DNA of 7,611 bases from Candidatus Rokuibacteriota bacterium (lineage in GTDB: Bacteria > Methylomirabilota > Methylomirabilia > Rokubacteriales > JACPHL01), in contig JACPHL010000095.1 of NCBI GenBank assembly GCA_016188625.1, positions 1 to 7,611 on the forward strand, written 5' to 3'. The notes under the pieces were generated by a model. It saw only the letters and a list, made by a program, of their open reading frames with translations. It was not told where the DNA came from and made no database searches. Every line of letters begins with the position of its first letter. The stretch's first letter is position 1. Both the position numbers and the translations under genes were made by a program. Of this stretch, positions 1 to 7,611 are shown one piece after another.

Positions 1-609
1 CAGGGCCCGGAGAACCCGGCGGTCCCGCTCGACGGCGCGCGGGGAGAGGTCCGTGTAGCCTAGCGCTAGGAGGCGGTAGAGCCACCGTCGGCGGGGCAGC
101 TCGCGCATGCAGAGCACGAGGTCCGCGCGAGTGGAGAAGTATCCGAGGGCCATCGAGATGGCCAGGTAGACGACGATGACGACAAGGTCCCAGATGAGCG
201 GGGAGCCGAGCCGTCCGTAGAGGAGGAGGTGGTAGAACCGGTCCGGCCGCCCCAGGTCCAGCATGATGAAGATCGTCGCCAGGATGAGACAGCTGATGGC
301 GAGGATCTCGGCGATCCGCGCCACCGGCCGGAAGCGCTCGATCCCGACGGCGTGGACCAGCGCGGCCACGAGGATGCCTCCCGCCGAGAGCCCGATGAAG
401 AGGACGAAGTTGACGATGTAGACCCCCCAGTACGCGGGGGTGTTCATCCCGGTCACCCAGAGGCCCGTGGTCCACTGCTGGCCGAAATAGGTGGCTATCC
501 CCCACCCGACGAGCGCGACCAGGCCCAGCAGGACCAGCACGTAGCCCGGACCGATCCGCTCCAGCCGACGGATGGTCTCTCTGAAGACCAACGCCTCTGC
601 CCTGGCCAT
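1..609 (-). CDS. NrfD/PsrC-type membrane subunit of the molybdoenzyme complex (N-terminal 203 residues, runs off left edge)
   Basis: My translation of the minus strand from the ATG at 609 stays open for 203 codons to the window edge. A short cytoplasmic N-terminus precedes hydrophobic segments at about 22-42, 61-88, 98-117 and 138-157, followed by a charged Arg-rich stretch (about 161-203). The region around residues 47-78 (WTTGLWVTGMNTPAYWG, then a Gly-rich helix) and the DLGRP motif at 118-122 are typical of the NrfD/PsrC/HybB family. These quinone-interacting membrane anchors pass electrons to or from a four-cluster ferredoxin subunit. Family members usually have eight or more helices, so about half the protein is missing here through window truncation. 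A GGAGG Shine-Dalgarno (618-622) lies 8 nt before the ATG, inside the end of the Fe-S gene, whose stop is only 3 nt upstream. It is therefore the third gene of the A-B-C operon. Family assignment is firm; the substrate is not indicated. Confidence 0.9.
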   Translation of the reverse strand, partial: MARAEALVFRETIRRLERIGPGYVLVLLGLVALVGWGIATYFGQQWTTGLWVTGMNTPAYWGVYIVNFVLFIGLSAGGILVAALVHAVGIERFRPVARIAEILAISCLILATIFIMLDLGRPDRFYHLLLYGRLGSPLIWDLVVIVVYLAISMALGYFSTRADLVLCMRELPRRRWLYRLLALGYTDLSPRAVERDRRVLRAL

Positions 610-612
610 GGC

Positions 613-1299
613 TCATCCCTCCATGAGGTAGATCACCTGCGGTCGGGTCCCCAGCTCCTCGAGGAACCGGAAGGCCCGGGGGCTCCGGGCCAGCCGGTAG
701 ACCTGGCTCCGCTCGTCGTCGAGGTCGCCGAAGAACCGGGCGCGCCTCGGGCAGGTTTGGACGCAGGCCGGGACCACGTCCCCGTCACGAAGCGCCCTCC
801 CCTCCGCCGCCGCCCGCCTGCGGGCCCGCTCGCTCCGCTGAACGCAGAAGGTGCACTTCTCCACGACCCCGACGGGCCTGGGGCGGGCGGGGGCGTCCGG
901 GTTGCGGTAGGAGGCATGGGTCTCGGCGAACTCCGGGGCCCGCCAGTTGAAGTAGCGCGCCCCGTACGGGCAGGCCACCGTGCAGTACCGGCAGCCGATG
1001 CAGCGCTCGTAGTCCTGTCGGACGATCCCCTCGGGATCCTTGAAGGTGGCCCCGACGGGGCAGACCTGGACGCACGGGGGGTTCTCACAGTGCATGCACG
1101 GGCGCGGGATGAAGCGCCCCTTGATGTGACGCCCCTCCCCCTCGATGACGGGGATCACCTCGTTCCAGAAGATGGCCCGACCCTCGTCGCTGTCGCGCTG
1201 GCCGGCGATCGGGACGTTGTTCTCCACCCGGCAGGCCACCGTGCAGGACTGGCAGGCCGTGCACTTGTCGAGGTCGATGACCATTCCCCAGCGGGGCAT
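613..1299 (-). CDS. Four-cluster ferredoxin-like electron-transfer subunit (PsrB/PhsB/TtrB/DmsB type)
   Basis: A 228-residue protein with sixteen cysteines in the CISM beta-subunit pattern: C13-x2-C16-x2-C19-x3-C23; C68-x2-C71-x4-C76-x3-C80; C100-x2-C103-x2-C106-x3-C110; C149-x2-C152-x26-C179-x3-C183. This supports four [4Fe-4S] clusters forming a wire between the catalytic molybdenum subunit and the NrfD anchor. No ligand is missing. There is no signal peptide, so it is presumably exported bound to its Tat-carrying partner, as in related complexes. The start is supported by a GGGAGGG Shine-Dalgarno (1307-1313), 8 nt upstream of the ATG. A second in-frame ATG five codons later is less well placed. 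It lies 61 bp after the catalytic gene and 3 bp before the NrfD gene. Length matches the family. The class is certain; it does not discriminate between sulfur, arsenic or other substrates. Confidence 0.96.
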   Translation of the reverse strand: MPRWGMVIDLDKCTACQSCTVACRVENNVPIAGQRDSDEGRAIFWNEVIPVIEGEGRHIKGRFIPRPCMHCENPPCVQVCPVGATFKDPEGIVRQDYERCIGCRYCTVACPYGARYFNWRAPEFAETHASYRNPDAPARPRPVGVVEKCTFCVQRSERARRRAAAEGRALRDGDVVPACVQTCPRRARFFGDLDDERSQVYRLARSPRAFRFLEELGTRPQVIYLMEG

Positions 1300-1360
1300 G
1301 CCCGATCCCTCCCTTCCTCTAGGTGCCTCGAAGGGGGGCGCTGCCCCACTTCGATATTTC
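1300..1360 (-). promoter_or_regulatory. Intercistronic spacer with an 11-bp hairpin between catalytic and Fe-S genes
   Basis: The arms TCGAAG (1328-1333) and CTTCGA (1349-1354) pair perfectly. After one G/A mismatch (1334/1348), GGGGC (1335-1339) pairs with GCCCC (1343-1347) around a 3-base loop. In the transcript the hairpin begins 6 nt after the TAG stop of the catalytic gene and is not followed by a U-run, so it does not look like an intrinsic terminator. The Fe-S Shine-Dalgarno sits downstream of it (1307-1313). I infer an mRNA-processing or stability element, or a partial attenuator that sets subunit ratios. Confidence 0.55.
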
Positions 1361-3787
1361 CTACGCCCTGTAGACCTTCACGCGGGTGGAGAAGAACCCC
1401 GCCGTCCCTCCGAGGTAGTCGTACTCGTTGGCCAGGATCCAGTTGGGGTTGGCCCCCCGCCCCTTGGCCCAGCGCCCGTAAGCCTGGTGCCCGAGCTCGA
1501 ACGGCATGTTGACCACATCCGGCTGGGCCCCCGGGTAGAGCCGGGCCCGGGTCTGGAGCTTCCCGAGCGGGGACTCTACCCAGACCGGATCCCCATCGGC
1601 GATCCCGAGCTTCTCGGCCGTCCGGGGGTTGATCTCAACCCAGCCCTCCCACTTCATGTTCGTATGCACGCCGAGAATCTCCTGAAGCCACGGGACATTG
1701 GCCCCGCGCCCCTCGGCGTGGGTCATGAGCTTGTAGGTGTTCAAATGAAACGGGAATTCTTTGGGATCGCCGGCGGTGCGGAACGGCTCGTAATGCGGGA
1801 GGTAGACCTCGTCGCCCCTGGCCCCGAGCCTGAGGCCTCTCAGGATCCCTTCCAGGGCCCGCTCCTGGGTGAGGGCCTTGCCCTGGGCCGCGGCCTTCTC
1901 GACCTCTTTCTCCGCCAGGTCGTGAAGCTTATGCTGGAGCGCCGTCGAGTAGAACTCGAACTTCTTGGTCGGCGTCTTCAGGACCGCCTCCCACTCCCCG
2001 AAGCGGTAGGGCGGCGCGGCCCAGACGCCCTCCTCCGTGAGCCGCTCCCAGAAGCCCTCGAAGGTCGGGCTCACGATGGTCCCCTGCTGGGCCTCCCAGA
2101 CCCCGCGGAAGCGGAACTGGAGGAGGTCCACGAAATCCCGCCAGGGGAAGGACCGGGCGACGCTCCCCCCGATCCCCTTGGCGATCTCGATCAGGACATC
2201 CCCGGTGTTCCGGGTGTCGTAGAGGGGCTGAACGACCGGCTGGCGGAGCCCTACCACCGGGTAGCCCAGGCTCGGGTAGATGACGTCGTCGTGCCAGCGC
2301 TCGAGGTAGGTGTGGTCCGGGAGGATCAGGTCGGCGTGCTGGCTGGTCTCGTCCAGGAAGGGCGAGAAGGTCACCACGAACGGGACCTTCTCGATCGCCC
2401 TGTAGAAGCGCCCCACGTCGGGCGTGGAGAAGAGCGGGTTCGTGTAGTAGGCAAAGAGCGCCTTGACCGGATAGGGCCCTTCGCCGAGGATCGACTCGGG
2501 GAGGCCCTGGTAGACCTTCCCTGCCAGCGGGTACCGGGCGGTGCCCGCCAGGTCCACCCGGGGCTTGGCGGTCCCCGCCCTGGCGAGGTCATCCTGGACC
2601 ACGTCGGGCCACGGGGTGAAGGAAGGCCCGCGCTGGACGATGATGCCGCCCGGCGCATCGACGGATCCCACCAGCGCGTTGAGGGCGTGGATGGCCATGC
2701 GGTTGTAGATCCCGTTGGACTGCATGCTGGCCCCGCGCTCCCCCGCGGCGATGGCCGGCCTGGTCGTCGCGAACTCGCGCGCGACCCTGACGATGGTGTC
2801 GGCCGGGACCCCGGTGATCTCGGAGACCTTTGCGGGCGGGTAATCCCGGAGCACCAGCGTCTTGAACCCGAGACGGCGCTCACCCGTCTTCTCGTCCGTC
2901 CAGTCCTCGAAGCCGAAGGTGTGCCCGGCCACGAAGGTCTCGTCGTAGAGTCCTTCCTGGACGATCACGTGGGCGATGCCGAGGGCGAGCGCGCCGTCGG
3001 TGCCGGGGCGGACGGGTATCCACTCATCGGCCTTGGCGGCGGTGACGGAAAACCGGGTGTCCACCTGGACGATCTTGGCGCGGATCGGCCGGCCCCGCCG
3101 CATGTGGCCGTAGGCCCTGAGGAGACGGGTCGTCGGGCGCCAGGCCTCGATGAACCCCCCACCGAAGCAGAGCAGGTAGTTGGTCCGGTCCCAGTCATAG
3201 CCGAGATAGGACTTGATCCCCTGGGTCAGGTAGTGGGCGAGGGCGGAGCCATCGGCGCAGATGGAGGAGTGGCCGACGTGGTTCGGCGTTCCGTAGGCGC
3301 GGCAGAAGCGATCGATCAGGTCGCCCATCTGCCCCCGGTTCCGCCCGCTCATGAAGACGAGGGTGTGGGACTCGCCGCGGGCGCGGAGCTCCTTGAGGCG
3401 GCCGACCACCGTGTCCAGGGCCTCGTCCCAGCCGATCTGCCTCCACCGCCCCGCGCCCCGGGGGCCGACGCGGAGCAGCGGCCCTTTGAGGCGATCCGGG
3501 TCGTAGAGGACCTGGAGCCCGATCTGCCCCTTGGGGCAGAGGACGCCCTCATTGATGGGGTGCCTGGGGTTCCCCTCGATCTTGACCGCCCGCTCCTCGA
3601 CGACACGGACGCGGATCCCGCATCCGCCGGGACACTGCAGGCACACGCTCGGCACCCAGCGCTCCTCCGCTGCATCCGAGGGCCCGCCACGCTCCTGTGC
3701 CCCCTCACGCCCCGGTCGGCCGGAGACGAGGAGCGCTGCGCCGGTGGCGGATGAGGCCTTGAGGAATGCCCTCCGCGTCATGGCCAT
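1361..3787 (-). CDS. Tat-exported molybdopterin oxidoreductase catalytic subunit (CISM family; PsrA/PhsA/ArrA-ArxA-like)
   Basis: An 808-residue bis-MGD enzyme. The N-terminus has a twin-arginine signal (TRRAFLK at 4-10, then a hydrophobic region to about residue 23). Next comes the [4Fe-4S] motif C49-x2-C52-x3-C56-x27-C84, followed by the molybdopterin oxidoreductase domain. In HSSIC (173-177), Cys177 sits where the family carries its molybdenum ligand. The C-terminal dinucleotide-binding domain spans about 680-805, including GRGANPNW near 777. A Cys ligand and an HSSIC-AD context suit the polysulfide/thiosulfate/arsenate reductase side of the superfamily rather than Ser-ligated DMSO reductase. 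Length is closer to ArrA/ArxA and PsrA than to the longer TtrA. The start is fixed by AGGAGG (3796-3801), 8 nt before the ATG. It heads the A-B-C operon and lies 173 bp after the regulator genes. I infer a periplasmic site and respiratory electron transfer. Substrate and direction (reductase or oxidase) are undetermined. Confidence 0.95.
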   Translation of the reverse strand: MAMTRRAFLKASSATGAALLVSGRPGREGAQERGGPSDAAEERWVPSVCLQCPGGCGIRVRVVEERAVKIEGNPRHPINEGVLCPKGQIGLQVLYDPDRLKGPLLRVGPRGAGRWRQIGWDEALDTVVGRLKELRARGESHTLVFMSGRNRGQMGDLIDRFCRAYGTPNHVGHSSICADGSALAHYLTQGIKSYLGYDWDRTNYLLCFGGGFIEAWRPTTRLLRAYGHMRRGRPIRAKIVQVDTRFSVTAAKADEWIPVRPGTDGALALGIAHVIVQEGLYDETFVAGHTFGFEDWTDEKTGERRLGFKTLVLRDYPPAKVSEITGVPADTIVRVAREFATTRPAIAAGERGASMQSNGIYNRMAIHALNALVGSVDAPGGIIVQRGPSFTPWPDVVQDDLARAGTAKPRVDLAGTARYPLAGKVYQGLPESILGEGPYPVKALFAYYTNPLFSTPDVGRFYRAIEKVPFVVTFSPFLDETSQHADLILPDHTYLERWHDDVIYPSLGYPVVGLRQPVVQPLYDTRNTGDVLIEIAKGIGGSVARSFPWRDFVDLLQFRFRGVWEAQQGTIVSPTFEGFWERLTEEGVWAAPPYRFGEWEAVLKTPTKKFEFYSTALQHKLHDLAEKEVEKAAAQGKALTQERALEGILRGLRLGARGDEVYLPHYEPFRTAGDPKEFPFHLNTYKLMTHAEGRGANVPWLQEILGVHTNMKWEGWVEINPRTAEKLGIADGDPVWVESPLGKLQTRARLYPGAQPDVVNMPFELGHQAYGRWAKGRGANPNWILANEYDYLGGTAGFFSTRVKVYRA

Positions 3788-3854
3788 GGTCGTTCCCTCC
3801 TCTTGATGGTCGGCCCCTGCCGGCTCCAGTGTCGGGCGGCCGCACCCGGGTTGT

Positions 3855-3889
3855 AAATTCCCGAAACGGCCCAGCGGGGAGGGAAATTT
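3855..3889. promoter_or_regulatory. Imperfect A/T-rich inverted repeat, candidate response-regulator operator
   Basis: On the plus strand AAATTCCC (3855-3862) faces GGGAAATTT (3881-3889). The arms are complementary except for one extra base and are separated by 18 bp, which puts their centres about two and a half helical turns apart. It lies about 70-100 bp upstream of the catalytic gene's ATG, a reasonable place for an activator site. No binding motif for this regulator is known to me, so the operator role is inference. Confidence 0.35.
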
Positions 3890-3905
3890 TGCAGGGGGGT
3901 GAGGA

Positions 3906-3950
3906 TGCCTAAAAGGCAGTAGGCCGAGATAGTGCCTTTGCGGGAAAGGC
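3906..3950 (-). repeat. Pair of small hairpins with mutually exclusive pairings after the response regulator gene
   Basis: TGCCT (3906-3910) and AGGCA (3914-3918) form a 5-bp stem with a 3-base loop. GCCTTT (3934-3939) and AAAGGC (3945-3950) form a perfect 6-bp stem with a 5-base loop. In addition AAAGGCA (3912-3918) is complementary to TGCCTTT (3933-3939), so the central TGCCTTT can pair with either flank. The cluster starts 10 bp after the response regulator stop. No uridine run follows either stem in the transcript, so I do not call a terminator. Confidence 0.45.
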
Positions 3951-3960
3951 GGACTGGAGG

Positions 3961-4614
3961 TCAGGCCTCGAGGTCGATGAGGCCCTTCCGGATGGCGTAG
4001 CGAATCAGCTCGGCGCGGTTGTGGAGGTTCAGCTTCGCCATGGCGTTGGCGCGGTGGCGTTCGACCGTGTAGGGGCTGATGGCGAGCTTGGCGGCGATCT
4101 CCTTGCTCGTGAGCCCTTCCGCGATGAGGCGGAGGATCTCCCGCTCCCGGTCGGTGAGCGGATCCACGGCAGGCTGCCCCTCCTTGACCCGGTCCAGGTA
4201 CTCATCGAGGAGGCGGCGGGTCAGGGGCGGCGAGAGGTAGGCCTCGCCCCGGGTGACCGAGCGGATCGCCCCGATCAGCTCCTCCGGGGGAGCCCCTTTG
4301 ACCACGTACCCCGCGGCCCCCGCGTGGAGCATCTGGAAGAAGTACTGCTCGTTCTCGTGCATGGTGAGGGCCAGCACCTGGACCTTGGCGTGTTCGGCCT
4401 TGATCCGTCGAGTGGCCTCCAGCCCGTTGAGGTCGGGCATCGCCACGTCCATGAGGACGAGATCGGGACGAAGCTCCTTCACCGCCCGGATCGCCTCCCG
4501 TCCGCTGGCCGCCTCGCCGACCACCGCAAGGTCGGACTGGGACTCCAGGAGGAGCCTGAGTCCGGCGCGGACGATCGCGTGATCGTCGACGAGCAGGATC
4601 TTCGTCTTCGTCAT
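3961..4614 (-). CDS. NarL/FixJ-family response regulator (REC + LuxR-type HTH)
   Basis: A 217-residue transcription factor, counting from the ATG at 4614. The N-terminal receiver domain (about 4-120) has the acidic pair D10/D11, the phosphoacceptor Asp56 in DLVLMD, the switch Thr84 and the conserved Lys106 in the YVVK context. A linker leads to a LuxR/GerE helix-turn-helix (about 151-213) with the typical TDREREIL...GLTSKEIA...TVERHR pattern. An upstream in-frame ATG at 4683 would add 23 Arg-rich residues unlike any receiver domain. The 4614 start is preferred because it overlaps the kinase stop as ATGA (4611-4614), a normal coupling arrangement. The partner is almost certainly the HisKA_3 kinase just upstream, the class that phosphorylates NarL-type regulators. 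I infer that it controls the molybdoenzyme operon starting 173 bp downstream, like TtrR for tetrathionate reductase. Targets are not shown by the sequence itself. Confidence 0.95.
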   Translation of the reverse strand: MTKTKILLVDDHAIVRAGLRLLLESQSDLAVVGEAASGREAIRAVKELRPDLVLMDVAMPDLNGLEATRRIKAEHAKVQVLALTMHENEQYFFQMLHAGAAGYVVKGAPPEELIGAIRSVTRGEAYLSPPLTRRLLDEYLDRVKEGQPAVDPLTDREREILRLIAEGLTSKEIAAKLAISPYTVERHRANAMAKLNLHNRAELIRYAIRKGLIDLEA

Positions 4615-6398
4615 CCCCCTGCCCCCAGTGGGATCTCGATGGAGATACGGGTTCCCGCGCCGGCGCCGCTCTCGATCCGCCATCGCCCCCCCAGGAGCGT
4701 CACGCGCTCCTCCATCCCCAGCAGACCGAGCCCGTCGCGCGCGGATTCAGGGTCGAACCCCTTGCCGTCGTCGGAGATCTCGGCGGCGACAACCCCGTCG
4801 CGAAACTCGAGGCGGACGGTCGCCCGGCCGGCCCCGGAGTGCCGGACGATGTTGGTGATGGCCTCCTGGACCACCCGAAAGAGCGCGGTCTCCACCTGCG
4901 GAGACAGTCGCCGGCGGGGCCCGCCGATCTTGAGCACGGGCTCGATTCCCGCCCGCGCGAGGTGGGTCTCGGCGAACCACTGGATCGCCGGGATGAGGCC
5001 GAGATCGTCCAGGAGGGTGGGGCGAAGGTCCACCATGAGACGGCGGATCTCCTCCAGCGTCATGGCCAGGAGGCCCTGGATCTCGCCCAGGTGGCGCCTG
5101 AGGGCATCGGATCCAGGCGGGATGGCGGCCTCGGCGCTCCCCACGTTCATGATGAGGGCCGTGAGGCTCTGCCCGATCTCGTCGTGCAACTCCCGGGAGA
5201 CCCGGCGGCGCTCCTCCTCCTGGGCCGTGATGAGCTTGTCCAGAAGTTGACGCCGGCCCTCCTCCTTGCGCTGGACCTCCTCGTAGAGGCGGGCGTTCTC
5301 CACCGCCATCCCGATCTGGTGGCCGATGGCGGTCAGCAGGTTGAGATCCTCATCGTCGAGCCCGTGGCCCTCTTCGGTCACGACGTTCATGATCCCGAGC
5401 ACCCGCTCCTTCGCCCTCAGCGGAACCGACGCGTGAGCCGTCTGCTCGCGCGCGGCGGCGGGCGAGATCCCGGCGCAGGCCGCCGGCACGGGTCCGGCTT
5501 CCTCCAGGACGATCCACCCCGCCCGGAGCTTCATGACATCCAGCACCTCGGCCAGGGCGCCTTTCAGGATCTCCTCGAGGTGCAGGGACCGGCTCACGGC
5601 GACCGCGATCGCGTTGAGCGCCGAGAGCTCCGCGTTTCGGCGCAGGAGTTGGCGGCGGGATCGGTCAAGGGCCTCCGTCATGGCGTTGAAAGCTTCGGTC
5701 AGGCGCCCGATCTCGTCGCGCGACCAGACGGGCGCCCTCTGGGAGAACTCGCCGCGGCCGACGGCCTCGGCCGCTCTCCCCAGGGCGAGGATCGGGCGGG
5801 TCAGCACGAAGGTAAGGAGCAGGGCCGCGGCCACTCCCCCGAGGGAGACGAGGGCGGTGACGCCGAGGAGCCGGCGGGTCATGCTGGTGACGATGGCGCC
5901 GATCCTCCGGTCGGACATCCCGACCCGGGCGACTCCGGCGCGGCCCTCCAGGATGGGCGTCGCCGCGTCGTAGATCCGCCCCTCCTCGGTCTCCAGGAGC
6001 TGGAGCCGGACCGCCCCCGGGGGCGCGGGGAGGTGGGCCCGGAGGAGCTGGAGGGAGGGCCTGCCCGAGAGCGTGTGGGCGAGCACCTCGCCCGAGCGGT
6101 CGAGGACCAGGACGTAGCGGACATCCTCGTTGTGTTCCAGGGTCGATCGGACCAGCTCGTGCAGGGCGAAGAGGTTGTTGGTGACGATCAGATCGGCGGC
6201 CCGGCCCGCCACCTCCCGGGCCAGCGCGGCTCCCCGACCCTGGAGCTCCGTCTCGAGGGTCGCCCGCATGCTGGAGCGGACCTGAAGCGTGACCCCAAAT
6301 CCGAGGAGCACCACCATCCCCAGCGCGATCCCCATGATCTTGATTCTGACGGGGACCGAGAGGGCCCATGACGCAAACTGCGACCATCCGGGCATCAT
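4611..6398 (-). CDS. Membrane sensor histidine kinase (extracytoplasmic sensor-HAMP-GAF-HisKA_3-HATPase)
   Basis: A 595-residue kinase. Transmembrane helix 1 is at about 20-40 and helix 2 at about 177-200. Between them lies an extracytoplasmic region of about 135 residues (41-176) with a Cache/PAS-like look. HAMP (about 200-253) and a GAF-like domain (about 258-370) follow, ending in the MAVENARLYEE helix. The dimerisation domain has SRELHDEIGQ with phosphoacceptor His405. The ATPase domain shows the N box (Asn516), DDGKGF (543-548) and GLGLLGM (556-562), so the catalytic parts look intact. The NarL-type partner follows with a 4-base ATGA overlap, and the start overlaps the binding-protein stop the same way (6395-6398). 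No Shine-Dalgarno precedes the start, consistent with translational coupling. An adjacent Met codon is an equally possible start. I infer that it receives its signal from the PhnD-like lipoprotein, with its own Cache-like and GAF regions as possible extra inputs. Confidence 0.95.
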   Translation of the reverse strand: MMPGWSQFASWALSVPVRIKIMGIALGMVVLLGFGVTLQVRSSMRATLETELQGRGAALAREVAGRAADLIVTNNLFALHELVRSTLEHNEDVRYVLVLDRSGEVLAHTLSGRPSLQLLRAHLPAPPGAVRLQLLETEEGRIYDAATPILEGRAGVARVGMSDRRIGAIVTSMTRRLLGVTALVSLGGVAAALLLTFVLTRPILALGRAAEAVGRGEFSQRAPVWSRDEIGRLTEAFNAMTEALDRSRRQLLRRNAELSALNAIAVAVSRSLHLEEILKGALAEVLDVMKLRAGWIVLEEAGPVPAACAGISPAAAREQTAHASVPLRAKERVLGIMNVVTEEGHGLDDEDLNLLTAIGHQIGMAVENARLYEEVQRKEEGRRQLLDKLITAQEEERRRVSRELHDEIGQSLTALIMNVGSAEAAIPPGSDALRRHLGEIQGLLAMTLEEIRRLMVDLRPTLLDDLGLIPAIQWFAETHLARAGIEPVLKIGGPRRRLSPQVETALFRVVQEAITNIVRHSGAGRATVRLEFRDGVVAAEISDDGKGFDPESARDGLGLLGMEERVTLLGGRWRIESGAGAGTRISIEIPLGAGG

Positions 6399-7342
6399 GG
6401 CAGGTTCTTGACGCGCGCCGCCATCGTCCGGACATCCCGGTAGTAGCCCTCGTCGAGAGAGACGAAGCGGTCGATCGCCAGGTCGGCGAGGATCCGTTTC
6501 GCCTTCGGGTCCCGGTCCATCTCGAGGAAGACCTGGCGGAGCTGCTCACGAAGCGACGGGTCGATGCGGGGGTGGACCACCACCGGCGGGTTCCCCCACG
6601 GCGGGGACTTCCCGATGACCTTGAGGCGCCGGCCCAGCTCGGGGGACTGGAGGACCATGAACTCATAGACCAGGCTGTCCACCGCGCCGCCGTCCACGAG
6701 CCGGTCCGCCACCGCCCGCACGGTGTTGTCGTGGCTGTAGGTGAACACCGTGCGCGCGAAGTAGGTCTCCGGGCGCTCACCGCGCCGGGCCAACAGGTAG
6801 GCGGGATAGAGCCAGCCGGAGCTGGAGAGCGGATCGGAGAAGGCGAAGGTCTTGCGGCGAAGGTCGTCCAGGGACCGGGCCTGGCTCTCCGCCGGGACGA
6901 TCAGGAGGGAGTGATAGGTCACCCGTCCCATCACCTGAGGCACCACCAGGATCTGCATCCCGAAGTCCCGCTGTCCCAGGATGTAGGCGTAGTCGCAGAC
7001 GAAGGCCACGTCGGCGTGCCCGTTCCGGACCAGGTCGTTGATCTCGCTGTAGGTCGGGCGCTGGAGAAACTCCACCGGCCGGTCCAGCCGCTCGGCCAGG
7101 TAATCCAGCAGGGGGGTATAGAGCCGGAAACTCTCCCGCGGGGAGATGACCGGGGCGACGGCGATGCGCACGGGGGCCTTCACCGGGCGGTCCGGCCGCC
7201 GGACGGTCTCCGTCACCTCGGAGGTCAGCTTGAGCCTCTGGGGGGTCGGCGCATCGCCGCATCCGGCGAAGGCGGCCAGCACCGGGACGGCCACCCCCGC
7301 CAGCACCGCGGTGCGCGCCCGGGAACCCCATCCCCGCCTCAT
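6395..7342 (-). CDS. PhnD-like periplasmic substrate-binding lipoprotein, probable ligand sensor for the kinase
   Basis: A 315-residue protein from the ATG at 7342. An Arg-rich n-region and a hydrophobic stretch (about 12-25) lead to a lipobox-like FAGC with Cys28; Phe at -3 is not ideal. The rest matches the phosphate/phosphonate-binding (PhnD, Phosphonate-bd) family: AVAPVISPRESF (61-72), AFVCDYAY (113-120), TFAFSDP with a Ser-rich turn (165-175), SHDNTVRAV (203-211), DSLVYE (222-227) and SPPWGNPPVV (246-255). The mature domain has one cysteine besides the lipidated one, Cys116. No ABC permease or ATPase gene is present, and the stop overlaps the kinase start, so a sensing role is favoured over uptake. 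Related examples are AioX/ArxX, which are separate proteins, and the PhnD-like N-terminus of TtrS. The ATG at 7342 is preferred to a GTG at 7393, which would put 17 extra residues before the signal peptide. The ligand is unknown. Confidence 0.93.
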   Translation of the reverse strand: MRRGWGSRARTAVLAGVAVPVLAAFAGCGDAPTPQRLKLTSEVTETVRRPDRPVKAPVRIAVAPVISPRESFRLYTPLLDYLAERLDRPVEFLQRPTYSEINDLVRNGHADVAFVCDYAYILGQRDFGMQILVVPQVMGRVTYHSLLIVPAESQARSLDDLRRKTFAFSDPLSSSGWLYPAYLLARRGERPETYFARTVFTYSHDNTVRAVADRLVDGGAVDSLVYEFMVLQSPELGRRLKVIGKSPPWGNPPVVVHPRIDPSLREQLRQVFLEMDRDPKAKRILADLAIDRFVSLDEGYYRDVRTMAARVKNLP

Positions 7343-7367: not shown

Positions 7368-7611
7368 TCAACTCCAGTGCCGTCCCCCCTCACCGGGCTG
7401 GAGGCCGCGGCCCGCCCCTGTCGGCTGCCGGGGACCCGGAGAGGCCGGCCGGCGAGGGCGAAGGACCAGGGCCAGGAGCATCCGGAAGATCTCCTCGTAG
7501 GGGTAGCTCCCCGTCAGCAAGCCCCAGAGGATGCGCCCCTGGGCCTCCTCCCTGCTGGCGTCCCCCCGCTCCGCGGCGACCAGGATCGTACCCGGGGCCG
7601 TCAGGAACCGC
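7368..7611 (-). CDS. C-terminal 80 residues of an unrecognised protein (gene enters from the right edge)
   Basis: The minus-strand frame starting at 7610 is open to a TGA at 7370-7368. The first 50 codons nearly all end in G or C, as expected of a real gene in this GC range. They encode an amphipathic, helix-like segment with GDASREEAQGRILWGLL and GSYPYEEIFRMLLALVL. The last 30 residues are rich in Pro, Gly and Arg and look disordered. I do not recognise the family. The stop lies 25 nt before the PhnD-like ATG, with that gene's Shine-Dalgarno in between, so it is probably the preceding cistron of the same operon. One alternative frame is also open to a stop at 7393-7391, but its Gly/Pro/Ala-rich product looks like a shadow. 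A respiratory-enzyme accessory protein would fit the neighbourhood, but nothing in the sequence proves it. Confidence 0.55.
   Translation of the reverse strand, partial: RFLTAPGTILVAAERGDASREEAQGRILWGLLTGSYPYEEIFRMLLALVLRPRRPASPGPRQPTGAGRGLQPGEGGRHWS

Follow-up and report, generated by a model that had tools for sequence, protein, structure and literature searches.

We analysed a 7,611-bp window (the whole stretch of DNA considered here), which is the entire contig JACPHL010000095.1 of a Candidatus Rokuibacteriota bacterium (phylum Methylomirabilota), the host being represented by a 2.6-Mb, 84%-complete metagenome-assembled genome (MAG). The window carries a sensory trio, X, S and R (an XSR module), next to genes for the Mo, Fe-S and NrfD subunits of a complex iron-sulfur molybdoenzyme (CISM), with a conserved non-coding element between the two groups:

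1 to 609, minus strand: NrfD/PsrC-type membrane quinone subunit, truncated by the contig end (PF03916, 2.2e-22)
613 to 1299, minus strand: Fe-S subunit with four 4Fe-4S cluster motifs and 16 Cys (Pfam 4Fe-4S domains)
1361 to 3787, minus strand: Mo, a molybdopterin oxidoreductase of 808 aa, predicted to be Tat-exported (twin-Arg; three molybdopterin domains by Pfam)
3852 to 3945, minus strand: conserved non-coding element of ~94 bp, a TGCCTTTTAGGCA palindrome and then AAATTTCC...GGGAATTT arms (alignment to copies at a related locus, L119)
3961 to 4614, minus strand: R, a NarL/FixJ-type response regulator of 217 aa (Pfam Response_reg and GerE helix-turn-helix, HTH)
4611 to 6398, minus strand: S, a membrane sensor kinase, sCache_3_2-HAMP-GAF-HisKA_3-HATPase (Pfam)
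6395 to 7342, minus strand: X, a PhnD-type periplasmic binding lipoprotein of the AioX/ArxX/ArrX sensor subfamily (PF12974, 1.4e-70; lipobox FAGC)
7467 to 7586, minus strand: FAD-dependent (geranylgeranyl-reductase-like) oxidoreductase, C-terminus only, cut by the contig end (66% identity over 41 aa to the L119 FAD gene)

A preliminary description of this DNA had presented X, S, R, Mo, Fe-S and NrfD as a complete six-gene cassette. All six genes were confirmed as real and co-directional, with ATGA overlaps at the X/S and S/R junctions, and all are intact except NrfD, of which 203 of about 490 aa are present, the rest being cut off by the contig end. The frame of X is open from GTG 7393, with a likely ATG start at 7342; the most plausible start of R is 4614, the longest frame beginning at 4683. 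The end of the FAD oxidoreductase gene, which lies upstream of X, had been missed. The trio does precede the enzyme genes in order, but not immediately, as had been stated: a 173-bp gap holding the conserved element separates R from Mo, and the trio and the enzyme genes therefore need not share one transcript.

The same cassette order is found in one further Methylomirabilota genome, at locus L119 (which seems to be contig G087:C65), with identities to the window proteins of 75% for X, 80% for S, 83% for R, 84% for Mo, 93% for Fe-S and 84% for NrfD, which has its full 490 aa there. Being shared by two genomes whose proteins are 75-93% identical, the gene order is more than chance. In L119, unlike in the window, R and Mo are separated by the gene of an FAD-dependent, geranylgeranyl-reductase-like protein, and NrfD is followed by the gene of a DMSO-reductase-type chaperone. 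Among the close Mo orthologs (69-84% identity), that of G087 is accompanied by the trio and that of G019 is cut by a contig end; with the window included, the trio adjoins two of five close family members, and it was found beside none of the more distant Mo homologues examined (about 42-56%). At L202 (1-2228), a close enzyme ortholog was observed downstream of a NarL-type regulator gene and two receiver-like frames.

Alignment of the element to the copies upstream of the Mo gene and of the FAD gene in L119 gave scores of 51, 53 and 73, whereas shuffled sequences reached at most 25, 32 and 28. A search for the core motif, CAMAATTYN{20,24}GGAATTK, yielded a single site in the host genome and two sites in G087, every one at these operons; five related genomes contain none, and a reversed control never matched. 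A sigma-70 promoter scan found nothing. An RNA switch in the R-Mo gap was rejected, because the element there has no Rfam match and the fold signal was not significant (z-scores -0.2 to -1.5), and on the same grounds the simplest reading is that the element is a candidate DNA operator/promoter for R, which would serve the enzyme operon.

Compared with solved structures, X is best matched by ArrX (1e-61) and then by AioX (1e-35), both well ahead of the transport proteins PtxB and PhnD, and its nearest named relatives are from Methylomirabilota. The AioX pocket consists of Y88, C106, Y131, S161, S163, H192 and D210 (Badilla et al. 2018, PMC5908839), and all seven residues are kept in X, as Y115, C133, Y160, S190, S192, H221 and D239 (numbered from GTG 7393). 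The pocket string YCYSSHD, which includes AioX Cys106, is common to the window X, ArrX and AioX; the pocket positions of E. coli TtrS differ from it, in an alignment that is poor. By isothermal titration calorimetry (ITC), arsenite was bound by AioX and ArxX, and arsenate and, weakly, phosphate by ArrX (PMC5908839). The same paper assigns AioR and ArxR to the AtoC type, but describes the ArrR proteins of Chrysiogenes and Firmicutes as CitB-like regulators that have a FixJ-like HTH and lack an AAA+ domain (PMC5908839). The window has the X-S-R order of ArrXSR together with a regulator of the NarL/FixJ, not the AtoC, type. We conclude that the trio is, as judged from its sequence, an AioX/ArxX/ArrX-type XSR module. 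At L082 (2371-5422), where a trio lies upstream of a DMSO-reductase-type-II enzyme, the pocket of X is degraded (FCRCPHD), which makes this protein a candidate for altered ligand specificity.

To survey such modules, 84,980 species genomes were scanned with an X alignment, which revealed 212 relatives; the best 80 of 212, mostly from Chloroflexota, were kept, and addition of Methylomirabilota and plasmid loci gave a set of 97 X proteins. The two peptide patterns used in the scan overlap the pocket at two of its seven positions, the His and one of the Tyr, so that conservation there is biased, while at the other five it is unbiased. Where at least 4.5 kb was available downstream of X, it is followed by S and a NarL-type R in 60 of 67 cases, and by an NtrC-type R in 4. 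Of the 38 X homologues whose flank extends to 9 kb or more, 34 have a molybdoenzyme gene on the same stretch. The nearest partner of the 97 X proteins is a TtrA-like enzyme in 41 cases (mostly in Chloroflexota), an enzyme of one of two unassigned classes, L078 and L092, in 6 each, Arr in 3, Arx in 2, the window enzyme in 2 and others in 3; for 34 of the 97, no partner molybdoenzyme was found within the available stretch, many of these ending at contig ends. NarL-type XSR adjoins Arr-type enzymes at L080, L146 and L163. On the X tree, partner class changes 20 times, against a minimum of 9, so that X phylogeny tracks enzyme class only loosely, and the five members of one Methylomirabilota X clade (98% support in the SH-like approximate likelihood ratio test, SH-aLRT) stand beside TtrA-like (two), L078-type, L079-type and Arr enzymes. 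These mixed partners indicate that the XSR module travels separately from the enzyme.

Other arrangements of the module were observed as well. The host has a second XSR module (L040, contig C82, 42-6269), immediately preceded by a TtrA-like open frame and a gene of the NrfD type. Two complete XSR trios stand in tandem on Chloroflexota contigs (L113, L130, L136 and L144), which suggests two-ligand sensing or duplication. At L214 (982-5016), a Methylomirabilota X is followed by a kinase and an NtrC-type regulator, and the phylum thus has both regulator types. In Candidatus Methanoperedens (L162, 9983-13539), an X homologue lies beside a long kinase-like frame, with no molybdoenzyme recognised on the available stretch. 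The L078-type molybdoenzyme class (HGAYCSDAGYR-like motif) is recurrently found with XSR (L097, L101, L106, L110, L141 and L154), the hosts of this pairing being Chloroflexota, Zixibacteria and Rokubacteria.

The top PDB match of Mo is ArrA (8e-113), followed by a thiosulfate/polysulfide reductase chain (2vpw). Over its full length, Mo is 38.1% identical to the ArxA-type enzyme of Cereibacter azotoformans pORIO3, which belongs to an arx-like cluster adjoining ars genes. The cofactor-ligand Cys of Mo sits in HSSICADGS; the window clade reads GR...HSSICADGS...Y, compared with GR...HSSMCSDGS...Y in ArxA and GRY...HSSVCAEAHK...Y in ArrA, and Mo carries the ArxA active-site signature. In ArrA numbering counted from Cys193, and with residue roles that we take to be those of ArrA, R165, H189, C193 and Y210 are kept in Mo and K198 is not, as in ArxA. 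Loss of the ligand Cys, which marks Qrc and alternative complex III, was not found in Mo, where the Cys is retained in HSSIC. In the Methylomirabilota paralogues that group with Mo, the host copy on contig C235 included, the cofactor Cys is lost or displaced in the alignment. The C235 locus (L039) encodes a paralogue of Mo, with the ligand Cys displaced, and of the Fe-S subunit, and related copies are present in many Methylomirabilota genomes; by their sequences, these paralogues look like a cofactor-less quinone complex. The window Fe-S subunit keeps all 16 Cys, while ActB has Thr at one position.

In a maximum-likelihood tree without ActB, a group of Arx and Arr (99/97) is sister to the window clade with the Methylomirabilota paralogues (100/99), the two being joined at 100/100. 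When same-phylum ActB was added, it fell within the Arx/Arr/window group (100/98), the internal branching order of which is not fixed by the tree. This placement agrees with the tree of Wells et al. 2023, which joins ActB to ArxA/ArrA (PMC10100899). The rows of our tree comprised two ArxA, one characterised ArrA and no QrcB; for ArrA and PsrA, the sequences had to be copied out of alignments in print, that of PsrA being partial. Mo did not reach the cut-off of the PhsA/PsrA model NF012032 (366.5 bits, cut-off 694), and PhsA/PsrA formed a separate clade in the trees; nor did it reach that of the QrcB model (298.6 bits, cut-off 440). It scored 130.6 bits on the TtrA model and is not a member of the TtrA clade. 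We conclude that the enzyme is, on phylogenetic grounds, of an uncharacterised lineage outside the ArxA and ArrA clades, within a radiation to which ActB, from alternative complex III, belongs as well.

Like ArrXSR-ArrAB of Chrysiogenes arsenatis (respiratory arsenate reductase), the window has a separate binding protein, a kinase and a NarL/FixJ/CitB-type regulator beside a CISM, and its X has the same pocket as ArrX; unlike in ArrAB, Mo is outside the ArrA clade and lacks an equivalent of K198, and the Fe-S subunit is ActB/Qrc-like. In ArxXSR-ArxB2ABCD (anaerobic arsenite oxidase; Cereibacter pORIO3, Sulfuricella pSCD), XSR also stands beside Mo-FeS-NrfD, and ArxA resembles Mo in its active site (HSS[IM]C[AS]DGS) and in the 38% full-length identity, but ArxR is of the AtoC/NtrC type while the window R is of the NarL type, and a clade of the window enzyme and ArxA is rejected by the tree. 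No ArxB2 ferredoxin was found between the window R and Mo, or among the matches around the L119 enzyme. The tetrathionate reductase system, TtrRS-TtrBCA, shares a LuxR-type HTH regulator and PhnD-type sensing beside a CISM, but TtrS fuses the sensing domain to the kinase, whereas the window X and S are separate genes, TtrA belongs to a different clade, and AioX pocket residues were not seen in the poorly aligned TtrS. Qrc and alternative complex III (QrcBCD, ActABC) share the type of Fe-S and NrfD subunits, and ActB is in the same MopB-tree branch; those complexes have no molybdenum cofactor, whereas the window keeps the ligand Cys and 16 Fe-S Cys.

The preliminary description had read the window as a functional unit of sensor and CISM, with PhnD-type sensing and an enzyme outside the characterised clades. 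The unit is borne out by the order recurring in L119/G087 and the element being specific to both operons, the sensing, of the AioX/ArrX kind, by the ArrX match and the seven pocket residues, and the position of Mo outside Arx/Arr by the trees and statistical tests of topology (below). The description had further proposed that the window is a hybrid of a new kind, in pairing a NarL-type regulator with a separate binding protein. This claim fails, because Chrysiogenes ArrXSR has been described with that layout (PMC5908839) and because a NarL-type R is the rule in our survey (60 of 67); AioR and ArxR had been correctly called NtrC-like, but the Arr systems had been left out of the comparison. An expectation that homologous clusters would have the sensor genes came half true, given the trio at two of five close members and at none of the examined distant homologues. 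Overall, the earlier interpretation is partly supported: the unit is inducible and respiratory, and its enzyme lies outside the characterised clades, but the sensor layout is of the known ArrXSR type.

Taking gene order, domains, pocket and active-site residues, phylogeny, and the recurrence of cassette and element as directly observed, we propose that the window encodes an arsenic-oxyanion-responsive XSR system that switches on a periplasmic, quinone-linked molybdoenzyme of a new lineage; we give this proposal an even chance of being right. The X lipoprotein would bind an anion via its AioX/ArrX-type pocket and touch the Cache domain of S, S would phosphorylate R, and R would bind the 3852-3945 element, turning on the Mo-FeS-NrfD genes. 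Mo, folded with bis-molybdopterin guanine dinucleotide and exported by Tat, would exchange electrons between the oxyanion and the quinone pool via the four Fe-S clusters and NrfD, and the chemistry would most likely be arsenite oxidation or arsenate reduction. The wiring of sensor to enzyme is well supported; the ligand, the substrate, the catalytic direction and the binding of R to the element we infer, with the residues of pocket and active site favouring an arsenic oxyanion.

Several results weigh against this proposal. Membership in the ArrA or ArxA clades was rejected by the tree, by approximately unbiased (AU) tests and by hidden Markov model cut-offs: AU tests reject a clade of the window enzyme and ArxA (p 0.002) and a clade of the window enzyme, Arx and Arr without the paralogues (p 0.0055), and Mo scores 415.6 bits on the ArrA model NF041714 (cut-off 1600), compared with 438 and 431 for ArxA proteins and 1057-1283 for Arr-type loci. 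By sequence, the Fe-S subunit is nearest the ActB C-terminal domain (1e-55) and QrcC. An identical X pocket is also found beside TtrA-like and other enzymes; the pocket thus does not fix the ligand, and its use as proof of arsenic was rejected. Immediately upstream of the G039 ortholog of Mo, a kinase and an NtrC-type regulator take the place of the trio, and the G060 ortholog has a NarL-type regulator and two receiver-like frames. Since one close ortholog has an NtrC-type regulator and the examined distant homologues are without the trio, sensor and enzyme are separable. No ars genes were seen near the locus, and the ACR3 family was not found in the 84%-complete host MAG; ACR3 was above cut-off in G087, G081 and G039, and was rejected as a host-level arsenic marker, being inconsistent across genomes. 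The assignment to arsenic is thus an inference, given that other enzyme classes come with this pocket too and that arsenic genes were not seen in the neighbourhood.

The same wiring could instead serve an oxyanion of sulfur or selenium (tetrathionate, thiosulfate, polysulfide, selenate/selenite), if the AioX-like pocket is generic to the sensor family. We consider this possible, though somewhat unlikely: X homologues with the same pocket stand beside TtrA-like enzymes in 41 of 97 cases, and also beside L078- and L092-type enzymes, and X phylogeny follows enzyme class loosely (20 changes), but AioX, ArxX and ArrX bound no tetrathionate, thiosulfate, selenate or sulfate in ITC (PMC5908839), and the active site of Mo is ArxA-like, not PhsA/PsrA-like. 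Moreover, the TtrA family includes an archaeal arsenate reductase (PMC10100899), and TtrA-like partners may be arsenic enzymes too.

It is quite unlikely that the complex is an electron-transfer device, a quinone oxidoreductase like Qrc or alternative complex III and not an oxyanion enzyme, for which the sensor merely sets expression. The likeness of the Fe-S subunit to the ActB C-terminal domain and QrcC, and the grouping of Mo with paralogues of lost or displaced cofactor Cys, would fit such a device; yet the window clade retains the Cys, His, Arg and Tyr of the Arr/Arx site, all 16 Fe-S cysteines are kept where ActB has one Thr, a DMSO-reductase-type chaperone gene adjoins the L119 enzyme genes, and the Cys-less paralogues are without the sensor trio. 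That trio and enzyme became adjacent by chance recombination, with R controlling something else, is very improbable, for although the G039 ortholog has a kinase and NtrC-type regulator in place of the trio and XSR modules switch partners across genomes, the order is kept in two genomes with an intervening element found only at these operons, and a molybdoenzyme lies on the same stretch for 34 of 38 X homologues with sufficient flank (at least 9 kb).

A bolder form of the arsenic proposal, which we regard as unlikely, is that the window clade is a third line of arsenic-oxyanion molybdoenzymes beside ArxA and ArrA, still catalytic and related to the lineage whose cofactor was lost on the way to quinone complexes of the ActB/Qrc type, and that arsenic is sensed by all the widespread NarL-type XSR modules in Chloroflexota and Methylomirabilota, which would make the TtrA-like and other partners arsenic enzymes.

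If the arsenic proposal is right, the enzymes of arsenic respiration gain an uncharacterised branch, at the point where arsenic enzymes and the aerobic alternative complex III come together in the published tree (PMC10100899). The substrate could then be tested with no need to culture the host, by means of a sensor whose pocket is known and of a candidate operator. AioX/ArrX-like sensors with NarL-type regulators are common across several enzyme classes, and can therefore help to assign substrates to many orphan CISM operons.

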